DNA from: Methanomicrobia archaeon JdFR-19
GTDB taxonomy: Archaea; Halobacteriota; Methanosarcinia; DSM-18856; Methermicoccaceae
DNA: 64,000 bases
Assembly (NCBI GenBank): GCA_002010075.1
Contig: MTMG01000018.1
Location: 1-64,000, forward strand
Reading direction: 5' to 3'
Under the pieces are notes generated by a model that saw only the letters and a list, made by a program, of their open reading frames with translations, did no database searches and was not told the DNA's origin. How positions within the stretch are numbered: the stretch's first letter is position 1; every line of letters starts with the position of its first letter. Shown piece by piece: positions 31,183-62,583 of the stretch. The position numbers were made by a program, and so were the translations under genes.

Positions 31183-32211
31183 TTAAATCGAGAATCTTAG
31201 AAGGGCGGCAACCCCTCCTATATGCAAAAGTCTCTTTCCAGCTTCAAACTCAGATGAAAGTATAACAACTTCTCCTCCACTCCTCTCAACATCTGTAAGT
31301 AGGGAGTCTATGTCGGTACCTTTATCCCTTTCTTCCCTCAAGATTTCATCCACCACGAGTAAAGTCTCAACAGCACCATATTCCACAGCTTTTTTTACTT
31401 CATCAAAGCCATAAGCTACGGCCTCTCCTTTGGATATCCTTCTGAGAACCTCGTCTATAAGTTTTGTCTCTTTTGTCAGTCTGAAATCTTCGAAAACTCT
31501 CTGAAGTACGCCCCTCCTTATAACTTCTATAAAACCTGGCATTCCACACGATGAAGAGCCTTCGACCATGATTTTCTTTGACATTTCTGCATCCTTTAGA
31601 TGCTCCAAGAAATCCTTTTTCGTAAAGCCTGGTCCTGCAACAATCACAACATCAACGTCTTGGGTACAATCCTTTAATGCTCTATAGACTTCATTAAAAA
31701 ACTCTTCTCGTTCATCTCTCTCCCCCCTCTTCCCATAACTTCTTGTGATGGTGCAGATCTCCTCAACCCCAAATTCCATCACTGCTCCAATAGATGCATA
31801 ACCCTCTTCAATCGTTAGAATTATGACAGAAGGTCTTTTTGAAGATTTTTCTGCTTCTTTGAGCCTCTCCAACTGGTCTTTCTTCCATTCCTTTATTATA
31901 GATACCTCGGTCATTTTCTCTATGTTTATGGTATGGTGAGAGCCCACATCCACACCATGCTCTATCACTCCCGACACTCTTAATCTGTTTGAAAATCTGT
32001 GAAATTCTACCTTTTCAACCCTTATACCCAATCTTACAGCTTTCTTTTCAGGTTTGTCTGGTCTAATTTTGTCTGATGCAACTTCAACAGCCCTTTTTGT
32101 TGTTGCAAAAATGAGGTCTCCTCTCTCGATTATATATTTGAGATGCCATAAATCGTCGAGAGTTTCGGGAATTACACTAACCTCTCCATCTTTCATTCTT
32201 GTAATCTTCAT
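31183..32211 (-). CDS. pelA: Pelota, mRNA surveillance / ribosome rescue factor
   Basis: A 342-residue archaeal Pelota (Dom34). The N-terminal Sm-like domain includes EVSVIPETLDDLWHLKYIIERGDLIFA and LGIRVEKVEFHRFSNRLRVSGVI. The central domain has VIVAGPGFTKKDFLEHL, and the C-terminal eRF1-like domain has AVAYGFDEVKKAVEYGAVETLLVVDE. It lacks the GGQ of release factors and, with aEF1A/ABCE1, splits stalled ribosomes. It ends the ftsY cluster; the ATG at 32211 is six bases after ftsY. Confidence 0.93.
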   Translation of the reverse strand: MKITRMKDGEVSVIPETLDDLWHLKYIIERGDLIFATTKRAVEVASDKIRPDKPEKKAVRLGIRVEKVEFHRFSNRLRVSGVIEHGVDVGSHHTINIEKMTEVSIIKEWKKDQLERLKEAEKSSKRPSVIILTIEEGYASIGAVMEFGVEEICTITRSYGKRGERDEREEFFNEVYRALKDCTQDVDVVIVAGPGFTKKDFLEHLKDAEMSKKIMVEGSSSCGMPGFIEVIRRGVLQRVFEDFRLTKETKLIDEVLRRISKGEAVAYGFDEVKKAVEYGAVETLLVVDEILREERDKGTDIDSLLTDVERSGGEVVILSSEFEAGKRLLHIGGVAALLRFSI

Positions 32212-32216
32212 AATTC

Positions 32217-33149
32217 TCACTCAAATATTCTCTCTATTAGCCAGTCTGGGTCAAATTTGACAAGGTCATCGTATCCCTGTCCAACACCAAAAAACAAAAT
32301 AGGCTTTTTTGTCTCGTATGAGATCGATATGGCAGCCCCACCCTTTGTATCTGCATCAAGTTTTGTTAGAATGCTTCCATCAAAATTCGTAATCGAGAGA
32401 AACCTTTTGGCTCTTTCAACTGCATCATTTCCCGCTGTTGCATCGTCTACAAATATTGTGAGGTCGGGTGGTGCTACTTTACATATCTTTCTGAGCTGTT
32501 CCATGAGATTCACATTCGTGTGCATCCTACCTGCGGTGTCTGAAAGGACGGCATCTATGTTCCTTGCCTTTGCATATGCAAGTGCATCATACAACACAGC
32601 TGCAGGGTCCCCCCCTGGCCTGTGTTTTATCACCTTTACATTCAACCTTTTAGCATGCTCATCAAGTTGCTGAATTGCACCCGCCCTGTATGTATCTCCG
32701 GCAGCAAGAACAACCGAATAACCCTTTTTCATGAGATAGTTCGCCATCTTTGCAATCGTTGTTGTCTTTCCAGTTCCGTTCACACCAACAAACAGCAAAT
32801 GAACCGGTCGATCTTTTGTATCAAAGAGTTTATCAAAATCACTTCTCCCAAAGTCATCCCCACACACAAGTATATCTCTTATCGCATCTTTGAGAGAGTT
32901 CTCCACAATCTTTTCAACATCCTCTCCTATCTTCCTCCTCTTTCCCACAAGTTTTTGTCTCACCCGCTCACAAATAGCCTCGGCAACATCAACAGCAACA
33001 TCACTCTCAAGGAGTCCAATCTAAAGCTCAAACAACAACCCATCCAATTCCTTTTCAGAGAGTATAAGCTCACCATCGAGAAGAGCCTTTGCCTTTTCAG
33101 TAAGACTTGCAGATTGTTTTTTTAACTTCTCCTTGAGAAAACCAAACAT
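32217..33149 (-). CDS. ftsY: Signal recognition particle receptor FtsY (in-frame TAG at codon 43)
   Basis: The SRP receptor GTPase that docks ribosome-SRP complexes at the membrane. From ATG 33149 the frame reads MFGFLKEKLKK and continues through ELDGLLFEL to a TAG (33023-33021). It then goes straight into IGLLESDVAVDVAEAI, the conserved FtsY N domain. The G domain has GVNGTGKTTT, DTAGRMHTN and TKLDADTKGGAA. Total 310 residues. Stopping at TAG would leave 42 residues; starting after it would remove most of the essential N domain. The start lies five bases behind pfdA. Confidence 0.93.
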
Positions 33150-33154
33150 ACAAA

Positions 33155-33592
33155 TCACTTTGGAAGGTACTGATTCAGAACTCTTCCCAGTTCCTCAAGT
33201 TGTTGTGTGAGTTCTCTGAGCGTCTTGCTCCCCTCTTCGTATGCTTTTGTTATATTGTCTTTTCTCTTTTTCAAAAACTCCTTTGCATCATTTATATCTT
33301 TTTCAACACTGAGTCCAGAACCTATCGTCACCATTACCTTGTCTGTGTTGGTAATCTTTGCATCTACAAATGCTCCAGCACCCACTGACATCTTCACATC
33401 TGTTCCACCCTTCTCAATCTCCTCGATAGCCATTACAGCCCTTTCAATCTCTCCCATGCTCATCTTCAGTATCTCAAGCTGTTGAGCTACTGATTCGGCC
33501 TCAGCTTGCAGTCTCTGGTATCTCGCATACATCAGCCCGATTTCTTCGCGTGAAGGGGTCTCTCTCGATGATGCTCCTTCCATTTCCCCCAT
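33155..33592 (-). CDS. pfdA: Prefoldin alpha subunit
   Basis: A 145-residue hexameric chaperone subunit. Two long coiled-coil helices (about 14-55 and 97-145) flank a central beta hairpin (SVGAGAFVDAKITNTDKVMVTIGSGLSVEKD). It captures unfolded protein for the thermosome. It lies between rpl18a and ftsY in the standard archaeal order. Confidence 0.93.
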   Translation of the reverse strand: MGEMEGASSRETPSREEIGLMYARYQRLQAEAESVAQQLEILKMSMGEIERAVMAIEEIEKGGTDVKMSVGAGAFVDAKITNTDKVMVTIGSGLSVEKDINDAKEFLKKRKDNITKAYEEGSKTLRELTQQLEELGRVLNQYLPK

Positions 33593-34917: not shown

Positions 34918-34927
34918 ATCATACCTC

Positions 34928-35503
34928 CTATTTCATTGCCAATATCTTCGATTGGGTGTGTTTCCGTGGGAATATTTCTTCCGCCTTATTTCTTAACATT
35001 ATCCTAAGTTCCTCTTCATAATCAGCCTTATGCATTTCCTTACTCTCCCTCTCCTCAATTTCAAAGACCATATCAACTATCCTGTTCAAAGTCTTTCTAC
35101 CATAACCAAGCAACGGCCTTACATACTCTACTCCATGTCTGTCCTCGAGACTTTGAGTCTCGGAAAGAGAGAGCATTGGAACCCTATCATCTCTTCTCGT
35201 ACCATCTGCCACAATAGGAAACATGGTCGCAACTCTTTCAAGTGCCTGTCGATGCAAATGATTTATAGCTCTTCTTGGATTTCCGTCTGCGATACTCATC
35301 TCCACCGCTTCATCTAATATCTCTCTATCCATTTTAATCACTCTGTGGGGCAGTCCTATGACATTGGAAGCTTTCTCAGCCTCTTTCCAACCATCTCCTA
35401 CGCCAAACGTTATCGTTACAAGCTCAACATCAAACATCTATGAAAGCATAAGTGATGCGAGTGCGCTATCTTTACCTCCACTAAACAGTACGCATACAGT
35501 CAT
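34928..35503 (-). CDS. PP-loop superfamily ATPase (in-frame TAG at codon 22)
   Basis: A 191-residue adenylating enzyme of the asparagine-synthase/PP-loop type, regularly found between L39e and PDCD5 genes in archaea; substrate unknown. From ATG 35503 the frame starts [20 protein letters not shown], the ATP pyrophosphatase loop. It crosses TAG (35440-35438) and continues [17 protein letters not shown], the expected second strand. Without readthrough the ATP loop is separated from the rest of the enzyme. The pattern [15 protein letters not shown] lies downstream. Confidence 0.85.
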
Positions 35504-37836: not shown

Positions 37837-38514
37837 TTGTGCAGAGAATGTGAAAGAAAGATTTCGCTGTATTTTGACAAGAAGCGTATGTTATCGATAC
37901 AGCATAAAGTTGCAAATATGGTTAGACTGGACAATTCTCCGGAAAAAATAAAGAAAGTCGGTGGTGTGGACTGTGCGTATGTAGGTGATTTGGTGGTTAG
38001 TGTGTGCATTATTTTGGACGTAGCCAGCTGGAAAGTTTTGGATACCTCGGTGGTCGTTGATGTGTGTGACTTTCCATACATCCCTTCGTTTCTCTCCTTT
38101 AGAGAGGGGCCAGCTTCTATCAGAGCGATAATGCATCTAAAAGAGAGAGCGGATCTGTTGCTTGTGAATGGTGTTGGTATTGCACATCCCAAAGGTGCAG
38201 GGTTTGCCTCACACATTGGAGTTGCTCTAGACATACCCACGATAGGTATAACAAAGAAGCCATTGTGCGGGGAAATTATAGAAACGGAGGGAACTGAAAG
38301 ACCCATCTTGTATGAGGAAAAAGTTGTGGGATATGCCATGAGAAACATTATAGTCACTCCAGGACATAACGTGAAAACAAATGATGTGCCTCGCCTCGTA
38401 TTAGGATTGATGAAAGAACATAAACTTCCAGAGCCTCTTTATCTATCTCATAAGCTTGCATCTGAATTGAAAGACATCATAAGAATTTTATATAGCAAAG
38501 ATTAGAGGGGTTGA
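37837..38514 (+). CDS. nfi: Endonuclease V (TAG three codons before TGA)
   Basis: Repairs deaminated bases by cutting near inosine. The 222-225-residue protein has catalytic motifs VGGVDCAYVGD, FPYIPSFLSFREGPA, LLVNGVGIAHPKGAGFASHIGV and IGITKKPLCG. It starts with TTG after GAGGG. The frame meets TAG at 38503-38505 and then AGG GGT TGA, so the natural end is either TAG or TGA at 38512-38514. The annotation uses TGA because TAG looks like sense elsewhere. Confidence 0.88.
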
Positions 38515-38924: not shown

Positions 38925-40984
38925 GAGATTCGAAGTTCGTAGTTATTGTGATAAAAGGAGAGGAGATAATTGTTGATAGTGATGGAGAGATAACAGTCCA
39001 TGATCGCTCTTCTCTCATGTCCGCTCTTCCAGAGTTATTTGAAGGTAAGATAGGCGAGAGGAAAATTTTTGGAAAAGAATGGAAACAGATATGCGATGAT
39101 TTGATAGTTGGGTATTCAGGACTGATGAAACTACCACTCCCAGTTTTTCAGTCAATCCTTTCAGACATAGAAGAGGGGTTCTTCATAATAGACCTTTCGA
39201 CCGGCAATTAGTTGCTGAATCAACATATAGAAAAAACACTCAATATCAGAAGTGAGGAAGTAAACAAGAATCCAGAGATATTATTGGGCAAGGTAAACCG
39301 GGAAGACAGGGAAAAACTTCAGAAAGTTGTTCAGGATATCAGGGAAGGCAAGATGACCAAACTATATCATGAAGCGAAGCTGGTTGACGGAGATATAACA
39401 AAAGACATCGAGATAATATTGATTCCTATCGGAACTGACCGACCATTTGCAATCATAGGGATTGCAAGAGATATCACACATAAAAAGGAATGGGAAAAAG
39501 AGATAATAGAAAAATATGAAGGTTGGGAGATTGCATTCGATTCTGTTCCCGACCCAATAACAATACTCGATAAAAACTTTACAATCCTCCAAGCAAACAA
39601 ATCTGTATTTGACGTTTTACCAGATGTCAATGTTGTGGGAATGAAATGTTACGAGGTTTTCCACAATGCGGATAGCCCTCCAGATTTCTGTCCATGCATT
39701 AAAACCTTAGAAGATGGACAGACGCATTCTGTCGAAATGTATGAAGAGAGGCTTGGGGGCATATTCAACGTTATCACATCCCCCATAATAAAAGAAGGCA
39801 AGATAGTGGGAGCAGTACATATTCTGCACAATGTAAGTGAGCAGAAGGAGATGAATAGAAAACTCAGAGAGTCCGAGACAAGATACAGATATGTTTTCGA
39901 AAGATTGCCTCTCGCTTTTGTTGTATGGGACACAGAGACAAAGGTGATTGAATGGAACAAGACTGCTGAAAAATTGTTTGGCTGGAAAAGGGATGAAGTA
40001 GTTGGAAAAAGTTTTTTTGACCTCATAATACCTGAGGATGAAGAGGAGCTCGTCCAGAATGTTGTGGAGAACCTCCTCAAAGGAATGCAGAATATCTGTG
40101 AAAACAAAAATCTGACGAAAGATGGAAGAACAATCGTATGCAGGTGGCATAACACACCCATTTTCGGAGAGGATGGGAGAGTTATTTATGTACTTTCGAT
40201 GGGAGAAGACGTGACAGATAAGATAAGACTCGAAGAGAGGAAAAAAGAACTTGAGGAGCAATTGACAGAGGCGGAAAAGCTTGCTGCAATAGGAGAGTTT
40301 GCTGCTGGTGTGGCTCACGAGGTGAATAACCCTCTAACAGCAATCATAAACTATGCCGAACTTCTTCTTGATGATGCAGAGAAAGAAGAAGAGAAGGAAT
40401 ACTTGGATGGGATAATCAAAGAAGGGAAGAGAATCAGAGACATAGTCAGAAGACTCTTGTCTTTCTCAAGAAAAGAAAAACCAAAGCTGGAGAAGATTCA
40501 TCTTGATGAGGTTGTGGAGGAGACATTGAAACTCATGAAGTACGAACTCGGTAAGAGAAAAATATGTGTTGAAAAAGAATACAGAGCTATGCCATTTATA
40601 TATGCAGATAAGAACATGATGAAACAGGTTTTTCTCAACCTTTTCACAAATTCGATTCATGCCCTTGATAAAAAACAAAGTTCTGAAAAACTCATAAAAA
40701 TAGCAATGGATACAACAAAGGAAAAGGAATATCTAAGAATAACGTTTGAAGACAACGGAATCGGTATAAAGAAAGAACATTTGAATAGGATTTTCGACCC
40801 ATTCTTCACAACAAAACGTATGGGAACGGGTCTTGGACTGTCTCTTGTGCATGGAATTGTGAAATCACATGGAGGAGTCATTAGGGTTGAGAGTGAGGAA
40901 GGTGTTTACACAAGATTCAAAATACTACTCCCTATTGTGCCTCCATTCGAAACTCGGGAGAATGTTTATAAATTCATAGTTTGA
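38921..40984 (+). CDS. PAS-domain sensor histidine kinase (in-frame TAG at codon 97)
   Basis: Read through TAG at 39209-39211 this is one 687-residue kinase; read as stop it becomes two pieces. The piece before ends EEGFFIIDLSTGN, and the piece after begins LLNQHIEKTLNIRSEE, the two halves of one PAS domain. Further PAS domains follow around residues 200-320 and 325-440. Then come the phospho-His region AAGVAHEVNNPLTAI (His near 466) and the ATPase boxes NLFTNSIHAL, DNGIGI and GTGLGLSLV. No membrane segment is evident, so it senses cytoplasmic signals. Confidence 0.88.
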
Positions 40985-44319: not shown

Positions 44320-45186
44320 GTGCACGAACTGGCATCTCTTTACAAACAATTAAGTCCCATCGACTTCAGGATACTTGTTGGAATAGAGAACGAAATGAGA
44401 AGGCATAAGTGGGTACCTATTGAAAACCTCCAGATATACACAGGAAGCAGTATAGAGCGTTTAAGAAAGCGACTCGAATTTCTCAGAGGCATGAAGATAG
44501 TTCTATACACGAAAACACCATACGAGGGTTATCAACTCTACTACCGGGGATACGACCTCCTGGCTCTGCACACATTTGTAAAGAGAGGGACACTCGATGC
44601 CGTTGGGGGGCAGATTGGGTTTGGAAAAGAGTCCGATGTCTTTGTTGGACTTAAAAATGAAAACAGAGTTGTGATAAAGCTACATAGAGCAGGCATGACA
44701 TTCAAAAAGATAAAGAGAGACAGAAGATACCTTGCGGACAAAGAACACTTTTCTTGGGTGTATGCATCAAGACTTGCAGCACAACATGAATTTAAGGCTC
44801 TCAAGATTCTCTATCCTGAGGTTAGTGTACCAGAGCCAATAGATCAGAATAGGCATGCAATAGTTATGGGATTGTGTGAAGGTGTGACTTTGGTTGACTG
44901 CGTACTCAAAGACCCCGAATTCTTTTTTGATGAGATTATTGAGAATACAAAAAAAACATACGAACTCGGAGTTGTCCATGGAGATCTGAGTGAATACAAC
45001 ATACTGGTTTCCCCAGATGGTATTACCATCATAGACTGGCCCCAATGGGTTGGAAGAGAGGAAATAAATGCAGACGAGCTTCTCCTCCATGATCTTTCGA
45101 TGATATGTAAATATTTTAAAAAGAAGTACTCTATAAAAAAAGACCCTGTTTCTCTTTTGAACTATTTCAAAAGTTAGAGAGGATGA
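44320..45186 (+). CDS. rio2: Rio2 serine/threonine kinase (TAG three codons before TGA)
   Basis: A 285-288-residue atypical kinase used in maturation of the 30S subunit. N-terminal winged helix (LSPIDFRILVGIENEMRRHKWV), P-loop region IGFGKESDVFVG, ATP lysine in RVVIKLHRAG, catalytic VVHGDLSEYNILV and metal-binding IIDWPQW. It starts with GTG overlapping the PHP stop. The frame meets TAG at 45175-45177, followed by AGA GGA TGA. It overlaps the convergent M50 gene by about 20 bases. Confidence 0.92.
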
Positions 45187-59875: not shown

Positions 59876-60568
59876 TCATTTTTTTATGAACTCTATTATC
59901 CCCTCTATCATTCTCCTCCCGTCCTCAGACCCTAACAAACTATTGCATGCTCTTTCTGGATGAGGCATGAGTCCCATTACATTCTTACTCTCATTCAGTA
60001 TACCGGCAATGTTCTCTACCGAACCATTTGGATTTGCTGATGCGTTCGGCTCTCCATTCTCATCCACATATCTAAGGGCGATAAGATTTGATGCATTCAA
60101 CCTTTCCAATCCCTCTTTGGTGTGGTAATATCTTCCCTCTTTATGAGCAATAGGTATGCGGATAAGTTCACCCACATCGAATTTGGATGTAAAAGGAGAC
60201 TCGTTCTCCTCAACTCTCAATGTACACCACTTGCATATGAACTTTGGATATTCGTTAATCATTAAAGCGCCCTCGAGGAGGAGTGATTCTGTGAGAACTT
60301 GAAAACCATTACATATTCCCAATATGGGCACGCCATCTTCAGCCATATCCCTCACAACATCCATTACAGGAGTTCTTGCAGCAATAGCACCAGCTCTTAG
60401 ATAATCTCCATACGAAAAACCACCCGGAATCACGACCGCATCACACATTCTCAGACTGCCAACATCCTTGTACCATATTATCTCTGCAGGACACCCCAAC
60501 TACTCAAACACAAATTTGACATCTCTATCACAATTTGTACCCCCAAAACTGATGACGCCCACCCTCAT
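59876..60568 (-). CDS. purQ: FGAM synthase glutaminase subunit PurQ (in-frame TAG at codon 23)
   Basis: The 230-residue glutaminase that supplies ammonia to PurL. From ATG 60568 the frame reads MRVGVISFGGTNCDRDV, crosses TAG at 60502-60500, and continues LGCPAEIIWYKDVGSL, the normal PurQ N-terminus. The nucleophile Cys is in ILGICNGFQVL and the His/Glu in MPHPERA. ATG overlaps the purS stop (ATGA). Beginning after the TAG would remove the first beta strand of the amidotransferase fold. Confidence 0.93.
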
Positions 60569-60874: not shown

Positions 60875-61888
60875 ATGGGAGTTGATTTGGGAGACTTATT
60901 TACGCCACATCAAATAAGGATGGACGAGTTATCAAAAAAAATTATAGCAATAGATGCCTACAACACCATTTATCAGTTTCTGAGCATTATAAGACAGAGG
61001 GATGGCACTCCTCTCATGGACTCAAGAGGAAGGATAACCTCTCATCTCTCTGGAGTACTCTACAGAACATCAAACTTCATGGAATATGGTATAAAGCCAG
61101 TTTATATATTCGATGGTGAACCACCCATCTTCAAAAAAGAGACAATTGAGGAGAGAGCAAGAAAAAGAGAGATGGCATATGAGCGGTGGATGGAAGCAAA
61201 AGAGCGGGGAGAGGAGACATTTGTGTATGCTCAAGCATCTGCAAAGGTGACTGATGAAATTGTGGAAGACGTAAAACATCTACTCGCCCTTATGGGAGTT
61301 CCGTACGTGATGGCACCTTCTGAAGGTGAGGCACAAGCTGCATATATGACGATAAAGGGAGATGCCCATTATGCAGCATCACAAGACTACGATTCACTTC
61401 TTTTCGGTGCAAAGAAAGCTATTAGAAATTTGGCAATAACTGGCAAGAGAAAACTCCCAAGAAAAAAAGTGTATGTTGAGGTAAAGCCAGAGGTAATTGA
61501 GCTGGAAAAAGAATTAAAACGACTTGAAATAACAAGAGAACAACTTATAGACATAGCAATACTTGTTGGAACTGACTATAATGAAGGAATAAAAGGTTTT
61601 GGTCCTAAAAAAGCCTATAACTTGATAAAGAAAGTGAGGAATTTGTATAAAGCTCTTGAAGAGATTGGATGTGAGGTCGAGAACGTCGATGAGATTAGAG
61701 AGTTTTTTATGCACCCACCAACAACCGATGATTATGCTCTCGAATGGAAGATACCTGAAAAAGATGGGATAATCGATTTTCTGTGTGGGGAAAGGGATTT
61801 CTCTGAAGAAAGGGTTGATGGAGCAGTTGAGAAGATGTTGATGGCACTCGAGAAGGATAAACAACAGACTCTCGACAGGTGGTTTTGA
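60875..61888 (+). CDS. fen: Flap endonuclease 1
   Basis: A 337-residue structure-specific nuclease removing Okazaki flaps. Active-site acidic residues lie in IAIDAYNTIYQFL, YIFDGEPP, APSEGEAQAAYM and ASQDYDSLLFG; then comes the H2TH motif LVGTDYNEGIKGFGPKKAY. The C-terminal PIP box QQTLDRWF binds PCNA. Its TGA overlaps the ATG of the cinA-like gene (TGATG). Confidence 0.96.
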   Translation: MGVDLGDLFTPHQIRMDELSKKIIAIDAYNTIYQFLSIIRQRDGTPLMDSRGRITSHLSGVLYRTSNFMEYGIKPVYIFDGEPPIFKKETIEERARKREMAYERWMEAKERGEETFVYAQASAKVTDEIVEDVKHLLALMGVPYVMAPSEGEAQAAYMTIKGDAHYAASQDYDSLLFGAKKAIRNLAITGKRKLPRKKVYVEVKPEVIELEKELKRLEITREQLIDIAILVGTDYNEGIKGFGPKKAYNLIKKVRNLYKALEEIGCEVENVDEIREFFMHPPTTDDYALEWKIPEKDGIIDFLCGERDFSEERVDGAVEKMLMALEKDKQQTLDRWF

Positions 61889-62583
61889 TGAAGACTTAGA
61901 TTATCTCGATAGGTGATGAGTTATTAAGAGGGGATACTCTCAACACAAATGCATCTTGGATTGCAAAAAAACTCTCTGAAAGAGGTATGGACATCGGTAA
62001 GATGCTGGTAATTCCAGATGATGTTGATGAGATATCTTCTTCGATAAGAGAATCAGACGAGGAGATAATAATCATCACGGGTGGGCTTGGCCCAACGCCA
62101 GATGATATGACAAGAGAAGGAGTTGCTGATGCTTTTGGTGATGTCTTGGTCATGAGAGAGGACCTTCTCGATGAGATGAGAGAGGTGCATGAGGTAACTA
62201 AAGACGCAGAAGTTATGGCTCAGCTACCCTCAAAGGCAGTGCCACTCAAAAATCCGGTTGGTTCAGCACCTGGATTTGTTATAGATGATAGAAACAAAGT
62301 GGTCTTTGTTCTTCCAGGAGTCCCAGAAGAGATGAGAGCAATGTTCGGTGATGTTTTGAGACACCTTGAGAAATTTGGTGAAAAAAAACATTATGTTGCG
62401 TACATTGAGACAACAAAACCAGAGGCGTCGATAGCATCAGAACTAAACGAATTCGTTAGAAGATTTCCATCTGTGAAGCTTGGTTCTTACCCGAAGGGGG
62501 AGTAGGTGTATATAAGGTTATCATCTCGAGATAAGAGCGAGTTGGAGAAAGCGGTAGAATGGCTCAAGAAACAAATAGAGTGA
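61888..62583 (+). CDS. CinA/MoaB-like molybdopterin-binding-fold protein with two in-frame TAG codons
   Basis: A 231-residue protein of the CinA N-terminal (MoCF) family. The frame reads ATG AAG ACT TAG ATT ATC: codon 4 is TAG (61897-61899), directly followed by IISIGDELLRGDTLNTNASWIAKKL. ITGGLGPTPDDMTREGVADAF and VLPGVPEEMRAMF are family hallmarks. A second TAG (62503-62505, codon 206) lies inside LGSYPKGE-TAG-VYIRLSSRDKSELE, again family-like, before TGA at 62581. The start overlaps fen (TGATG). Function of archaeal members is unclear. Confidence 0.87.

Follow-up and report, generated by a model that had tools for sequence, protein, structure and literature searches.

An in-frame TAG in the signal recognition particle receptor gene ftsY of Methanomicrobia archaeon JdFR-19 and the probable reading of TAG as pyrrolysine across its genome

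In Methanomicrobia archaeon JdFR-19, UAG appears to be a rare, ordinary sense codon that is read as pyrrolysine (Pyl), and a full-length FtsY with a tolerated Pyl at residue 43 would be made from the TAG-containing ftsY gene; we put the probability of this reading at roughly 0.9. The window, meaning the whole stretch of DNA analysed (64,000 nucleotides), comes from contig C5 (78,121 bases) of an assembly of 1,288,683 bases in 27 contigs, with a GC content of 43.4% in the part sampled; the published JdFR-19 MAG has 1,289 kb in 27 scaffolds, an N50 of 78,121 and a GC content of 43.2% (PMC5369317). The ftsY region of the window contains the following features.

32217..33149, minus strand: ftsY (SRP receptor GTPase), 310 codons plus stop with TAG read as sense
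33024..33149, minus strand: the 42 codons upstream of the ftsY TAG, in the same frame, with part of this stretch aligning to relatives of FtsY
32217..32963, minus strand: the standard-code ORF of the ftsY frame, which starts at a GTG (codon 63), is 248 aa long and lacks most of the N domain
31183..32220, minus strand: pelota (mRNA surveillance), TIGR00111 370.7 bits, in one operon with ftsY, whose stop it overlaps by 4 bases
33155..33592, minus strand: prefoldin alpha, TIGR00293 108 bits, directly upstream of ftsY in the operon

On the minus strand, the ftsY frame starts with the ATG at 33149, its stop ends at 32217, and it contains one in-frame TAG, codon 43 counted from that ATG (plus-strand coordinates 33021-33023). 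The reading around this codon is ...ELDGLLFEL-TAG-IGLLESDVAVDVAEA..., and with TAG as Pyl the peptide across codon 43 would be LLFEL[Pyl]IGLLESDVAVDVAEAICER. The read-through protein scored 323.7 bits against the equivalog model TIGR00064 (cut-off 260.7) and is ~55-64% identical to the FtsY proteins of Methanosarcinia. A Pfam search placed SRP54_N (PF02881) at residues 21-86 and the SRP54 GTPase domain (PF00448) at residues 117-309, which is the N plus G order of FtsY; SRP54_N spans the TAG, confirming the sequence-only reading, which had located this codon inside the N domain. The 42 codons before the TAG have a positive codon-usage score (11.9), indicating coding sequence, and the same-strand position between pelota and prefoldin alpha is as expected for a working, operon-borne ftsY.

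If TAG terminated here, either a shortened FtsY would be made from the GTG at 32963 (codon 63) or ftsY would be a pseudogene, and we consider both extremely unlikely. The standard-code caller does yield exactly the 248-aa ORF, the only one that this code gives in the frame, and aRF1 looks canonical, being encoded by a single gene with intact NIKS and YHCASEF motifs. However, a start at codon 63 would cost FtsY 62 residues and with them most of the conserved N domain, as had been anticipated from the sequence for any truncation at this codon, while the GTPase part of FtsY is intact and selection is the same on both sides of TAG genome-wide (see below). The second complete ftsY that had been named as possible counter-evidence was not found in a search of the whole assembly, in which the sole other match was SRP54, encoded in its own frame of 445 aa on contig C2; FtsY and SRP54 are thus each present in one copy. 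Given the intact aRF1, some termination at UAG may occur alongside Pyl decoding, and some truncated product may form.

The ftsY codon is one of many. In a sample of 461 kb of the 1,289-kb genome, called with TAG as sense, 74 of 462 genes contained a total of 96 in-frame TAG codons (0.70 per 1000 codons), and 52 of the 54 genes ended at TAG by standard calling ran on as longer genes. Conserved families span the codon in leucyl-tRNA synthetase (leuS), adenylosuccinate synthase (purA), B12-dependent ribonucleotide reductase (nrdJ) and PurQ, as well as in Elp3, TrpD, CofH, TYW1, Pus10 and 3-dehydroquinate synthase II. At this density, a gene of 310 codons has a ~20% chance of one TAG; a TAG in ftsY is therefore not rare for this genome, and FtsY does not stand out among the TAG-bearing genes, which make up 16% of the total. 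The other TAG-bearing genes in the window are listed here.

34919..35503, minus strand: DUF7411 protein, two TAGs, codons 22 (35438-35440) and 192 (34928-34930), each also present in the sister species; PF24167 spans codon 22
59876..60568, minus strand: purQ, TAG at codon 23 (60500-60502), common to the sister; TIGR01737 residues 1-226, 313 bits
38921..40984, plus strand: PAS/sensor histidine kinase, TAG at codon 97 (39209-39211), common to the sister
61888..62583, plus strand: CinA/MoCF-type protein, TAG at codon 206 (62503-62505), CAG (Gln) in the sister; PF24102 (170-230) spans the TAG
44320..45186, plus strand: RIO2 kinase, TAG as codon 286 with 2 further codons before the stop, same in the sister; PF09202/PF01163
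37918..38514, plus strand: endonuclease V, TAG as codon 196 with 2 further codons before the stop, same in the sister; PF04493

Codon-usage scoring alone was dropped, as it did not clearly distinguish readthrough of TAG from fusions of adjacent genes in the TAA/TGA controls, and a comparison with a sister species was used in its place; an initial all-ORF version of that comparison was also dropped, antisense frames having dominated it. The sister (G001, 59% complete) belongs to the same genus and likewise has PylS and tRNA-Pyl. With query genes called with TAG as sense, 207 orthologues and 57,005 aligned codons were compared. TAG was common to both species at 33 of 43 comparable sites, and at the other 10 sites it was replaced in one of the two species by a sense codon (CAG at 4, GAG at 3, CTG at 2 and AAG at 1). 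In-frame TAA or TGA was absent from the well-aligned gene pairs among these orthologues and occurred in only one poorly aligned pair. The ratio of non-synonymous to synonymous changes within TAG genes was 0.45 before the TAG and 0.40 after it, compared with 0.33 in genes without TAG, and purifying selection after the TAG was thus observed in these other genes. Since calling the queries with TAG as sense biases this comparison, which is also why a figure of 43/45 was set aside, we ran an unbiased control in which genes were called by the standard code and followed past their stop into the sister alignment. The ratio after the stop codon was 0.81 for TAG, 6.76 for TAA and 3.02 for TGA, and other in-frame stops in the sister past this codon numbered 0, 21 and 11, respectively. 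Judged by these substitutions, the sequence after TAG evolves as coding sequence, whereas that after TAA or TGA does not. TAG as a genome-wide sense codon in JdFR-19 is therefore strongly supported, and so is the readthrough that had been proposed for ftsY.

A sequencing or assembly error in ftsY, with a true codon of GAG or CAG and Pyl confined to other genes, is very unlikely. TAG is one base away from the GAG and CAG codons of the relatives, and the site is unreplicated, with ftsY absent from the 59%-complete sister assembly. On the other hand, in-frame TAG is found genome-wide and most of the comparable sites are common to an independently assembled sister, and random errors would also yield in-frame TGA and TAA, of which the well-aligned genes have none.

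TAG stops appear to be absent or nearly so in JdFR-19 genes. Seven genes have just 1-3 codons between their last TAG and a TAA or TGA, and sense and stop are indistinguishable there by length alone. This arrangement looks like an old TAG stop backed by a newer stop, and the sister retains the short tails as far as the same final stop. Near-terminal TAGs conserved in this way are found in the window at 45175-45177, 38503-38505 and 34928-34930, and also at L149, L152 and L156.

The genome encodes complete machinery for pyrrolysine, which would be the residue inserted at TAG. A tRNA-Pyl with the anticodon CUA (L001:1000-1070), whose fold has an anticodon stem of 6 bp, is followed in a row by pylSn and pylSc (L001:1000-2226 for the three) on contig C6, away from pylBC and pylD. 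The two parts of PylRS are adjoining but separate genes, placing the enzyme in the split PylSn+PylSc class; PylSn scored 91.8 bits against TIGR03912 (cut-off 51.15) and PylSc 297.9 bits against TIGR02367. PylB (417.9 bits), PylC (335 bits) and PylD (218.3 bits) all exceeded their curated cut-offs, with pylB and pylC elsewhere on contig C6 and pylD on contig C18. The pyl genes themselves contain no in-frame TAG, which is not significant (expected 0.96, P(0)=0.38). TAG is present at codon 202 of mtmB and at codon 339 of mtbB, the latter in a frame starting at profile position 17; we take these codons to match the catalytic sites Pyl202 of MtmB and Pyl356 of MtbB. A review (PMC9499178, citing Guo et al. 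2022) gives JdFR-19, the genome analysed here, among the examples of this split class in archaea, in agreement with the gene arrangement found; its passage on the class does not take up genome-wide TAG use or FtsY.

Translation of TAG as Gln, Glu or Lys by a different suppressor or near-cognate tRNA would account for the exchange of TAG mainly with Gln and Glu codons between the two species. We regard it as highly improbable, given that a scan of ~460 kb, roughly a third of the genome, yielded tRNA-Pyl as the sole CUA tRNA, adjoining pylSn and pylSc, and that the whole Pyl pathway has been kept.

We also assessed residue 43 itself. Of 108 other sequences, 101 have Glu at the aligned position and 5 have Gln, with Gly and Arg occurring once each, in agreement with the sequence-only expectation of a polar or acidic residue, commonly Glu; the Arg-bearing sequence, the most distant and from a bacterial locus, is probably SRP54/Ffh rather than FtsY. 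The relatives' codons at this site were GAG (62), GAA (39), CAG (3) and CAA (2), and a single base separates TAG from GAG and from CAG. Because relatives have Glu or Gln there, the ftsY TAG most likely arose through a single base change in a GAG or CAG codon, and the same residues suggest that the site tolerates a residue other than Pyl. In an AlphaFold2 model based on a 27-sequence alignment (mean pLDDT 85.5, residue 43 modelled as Lys), residue 43 is predicted to lie mid-helix, within helix 32-48 and 3 residues ahead of the conserved LLESDV motif. The RNA after the ftsY TAG showed neither an unusually stable structure (z 0.14) nor a PYLIS-like hairpin.

We propose that pyrrolysine would be made by PylB, PylC and PylD and charged onto tRNA-Pyl(CUA) by the two-piece PylRS (PylSn + PylSc). 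An ancestral Glu (GAG) or Gln (CAG) at codon 43, a tolerant position in the N-domain helix, would have drifted to TAG by one substitution. The ribosome would insert Pyl there to give full-length FtsY with no need for a special recoding signal, and Pyl-tRNA would win a simple competition at UAG in a genome that seems to have nearly given up TAG as a stop. Decoding would be constitutive and efficient. The best reading of the FtsY Pyl is that it has no special role and is most likely tolerated rather than functional, the residue being presumably neutral.

A variant of this reading, not exclusive of Pyl, is a conditional switch in which Pyl is inserted at UAG only under induction of the pyl genes by methylamines, so that Pyl supply regulates FtsY and other proteins. 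Trimethylamine-dependent Pyl coding in Acetohalobium, as cited in PMC9723677, provides a precedent, and mtmB and mtbB are present in JdFR-19. Nevertheless, the variant is quite improbable, since TAG also occurs in leuS, purA, purQ and nrdJ and Pyl withdrawal should thus stop growth; the lack of a recoding structure after the ftsY TAG also counts against it. The leuS gene with the in-frame TAG lies at L144:4-1596, and making LeuRS would itself need Pyl decoding.

Constitutive decoding of TAG as Pyl would make the FtsY TAG a further case of two phenomena already known, neutral Pyl and archaea with all TAG read as Pyl. An archaeal 'Pyl code', in which all TAG codons are read as pyrrolysine genome-wide, has reportedly been described with proteomics by Kivenson et al. 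in Science in 2025. JdFR-19 resembles it in the genome-wide TAG of housekeeping genes, the full Pyl machinery and, apparently, gene ends at TAA or TGA; the evidence for sense TAG in JdFR-19 comes from its sequence. Pyl in Thg1 of Methanosarcina acetivorans is said to have arisen through neutral evolution, according to Heinemann et al. in 2009, a study listed among the references of PMC9723677. Like ftsY, the Thg1 gene is a housekeeping gene with a TAG and no catalytic need for Pyl; unlike Thg1, the JdFR-19 FtsY is one of dozens of such cases and is the SRP receptor. In the methylamine methyltransferases MtmB, MtbB and MttB, Pyl is catalytic. The codon and the machinery are the same as for FtsY, and JdFR-19 mtmB and mtbB have TAG at the expected site, but a catalytic role is not expected for the FtsY Pyl. 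The Sifarchaeia also have a complete Pyl system in a presumed non-methanogen; however, 21% of their genes end with UAG and in-frame UAG occurs in a single gene (PMC9723677), whereas in JdFR-19 TAG stops are apparently absent or nearly so and in-frame TAG is widespread.

If TAG is read as Pyl throughout, standard-code calling would truncate or split ~1 gene in 6 in JdFR-19, ftsY included, and the organism would depend on pyrrolysine for basic functions. It would then offer a clear natural case of essential proteins that contain Pyl like any other amino acid, in which the cost and tolerance of Pyl outside the methyltransferases could be measured directly. A further-reaching idea, tentative and on balance doubtful, is that this is a non-methanogenic archaeal genus for which Pyl is indispensable for life and the Pyl pathway essential apart from methylamine use, because the SRP receptor, LeuRS, ribonucleotide reductase and enzymes of nucleotide synthesis would all contain Pyl; the FtsY Pyl might even tune the SRP-receptor helix beside the LLESDV motif. 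The MCR alpha N-terminal domain was not found in the JdFR-19 assembly, nor was MCR gamma in either assembly of the genus (JdFR-19 and G001). This absence possibly reflects a non-methanogenic methylotroph that uses Pyl, or assembly gaps; the incomplete JdFR-19 MAG is also without HemBCD (PMC8351635). Despite the lack of these MCR hits, mtmB and mtbB were found, as was a gene for 'methanogenesis marker 2'. SRP54, the partner of FtsY, also differs between the two species: the sister gene (L127:1388-2695) has TAG at codon 98, for which JdFR-19 has CAG (Gln).
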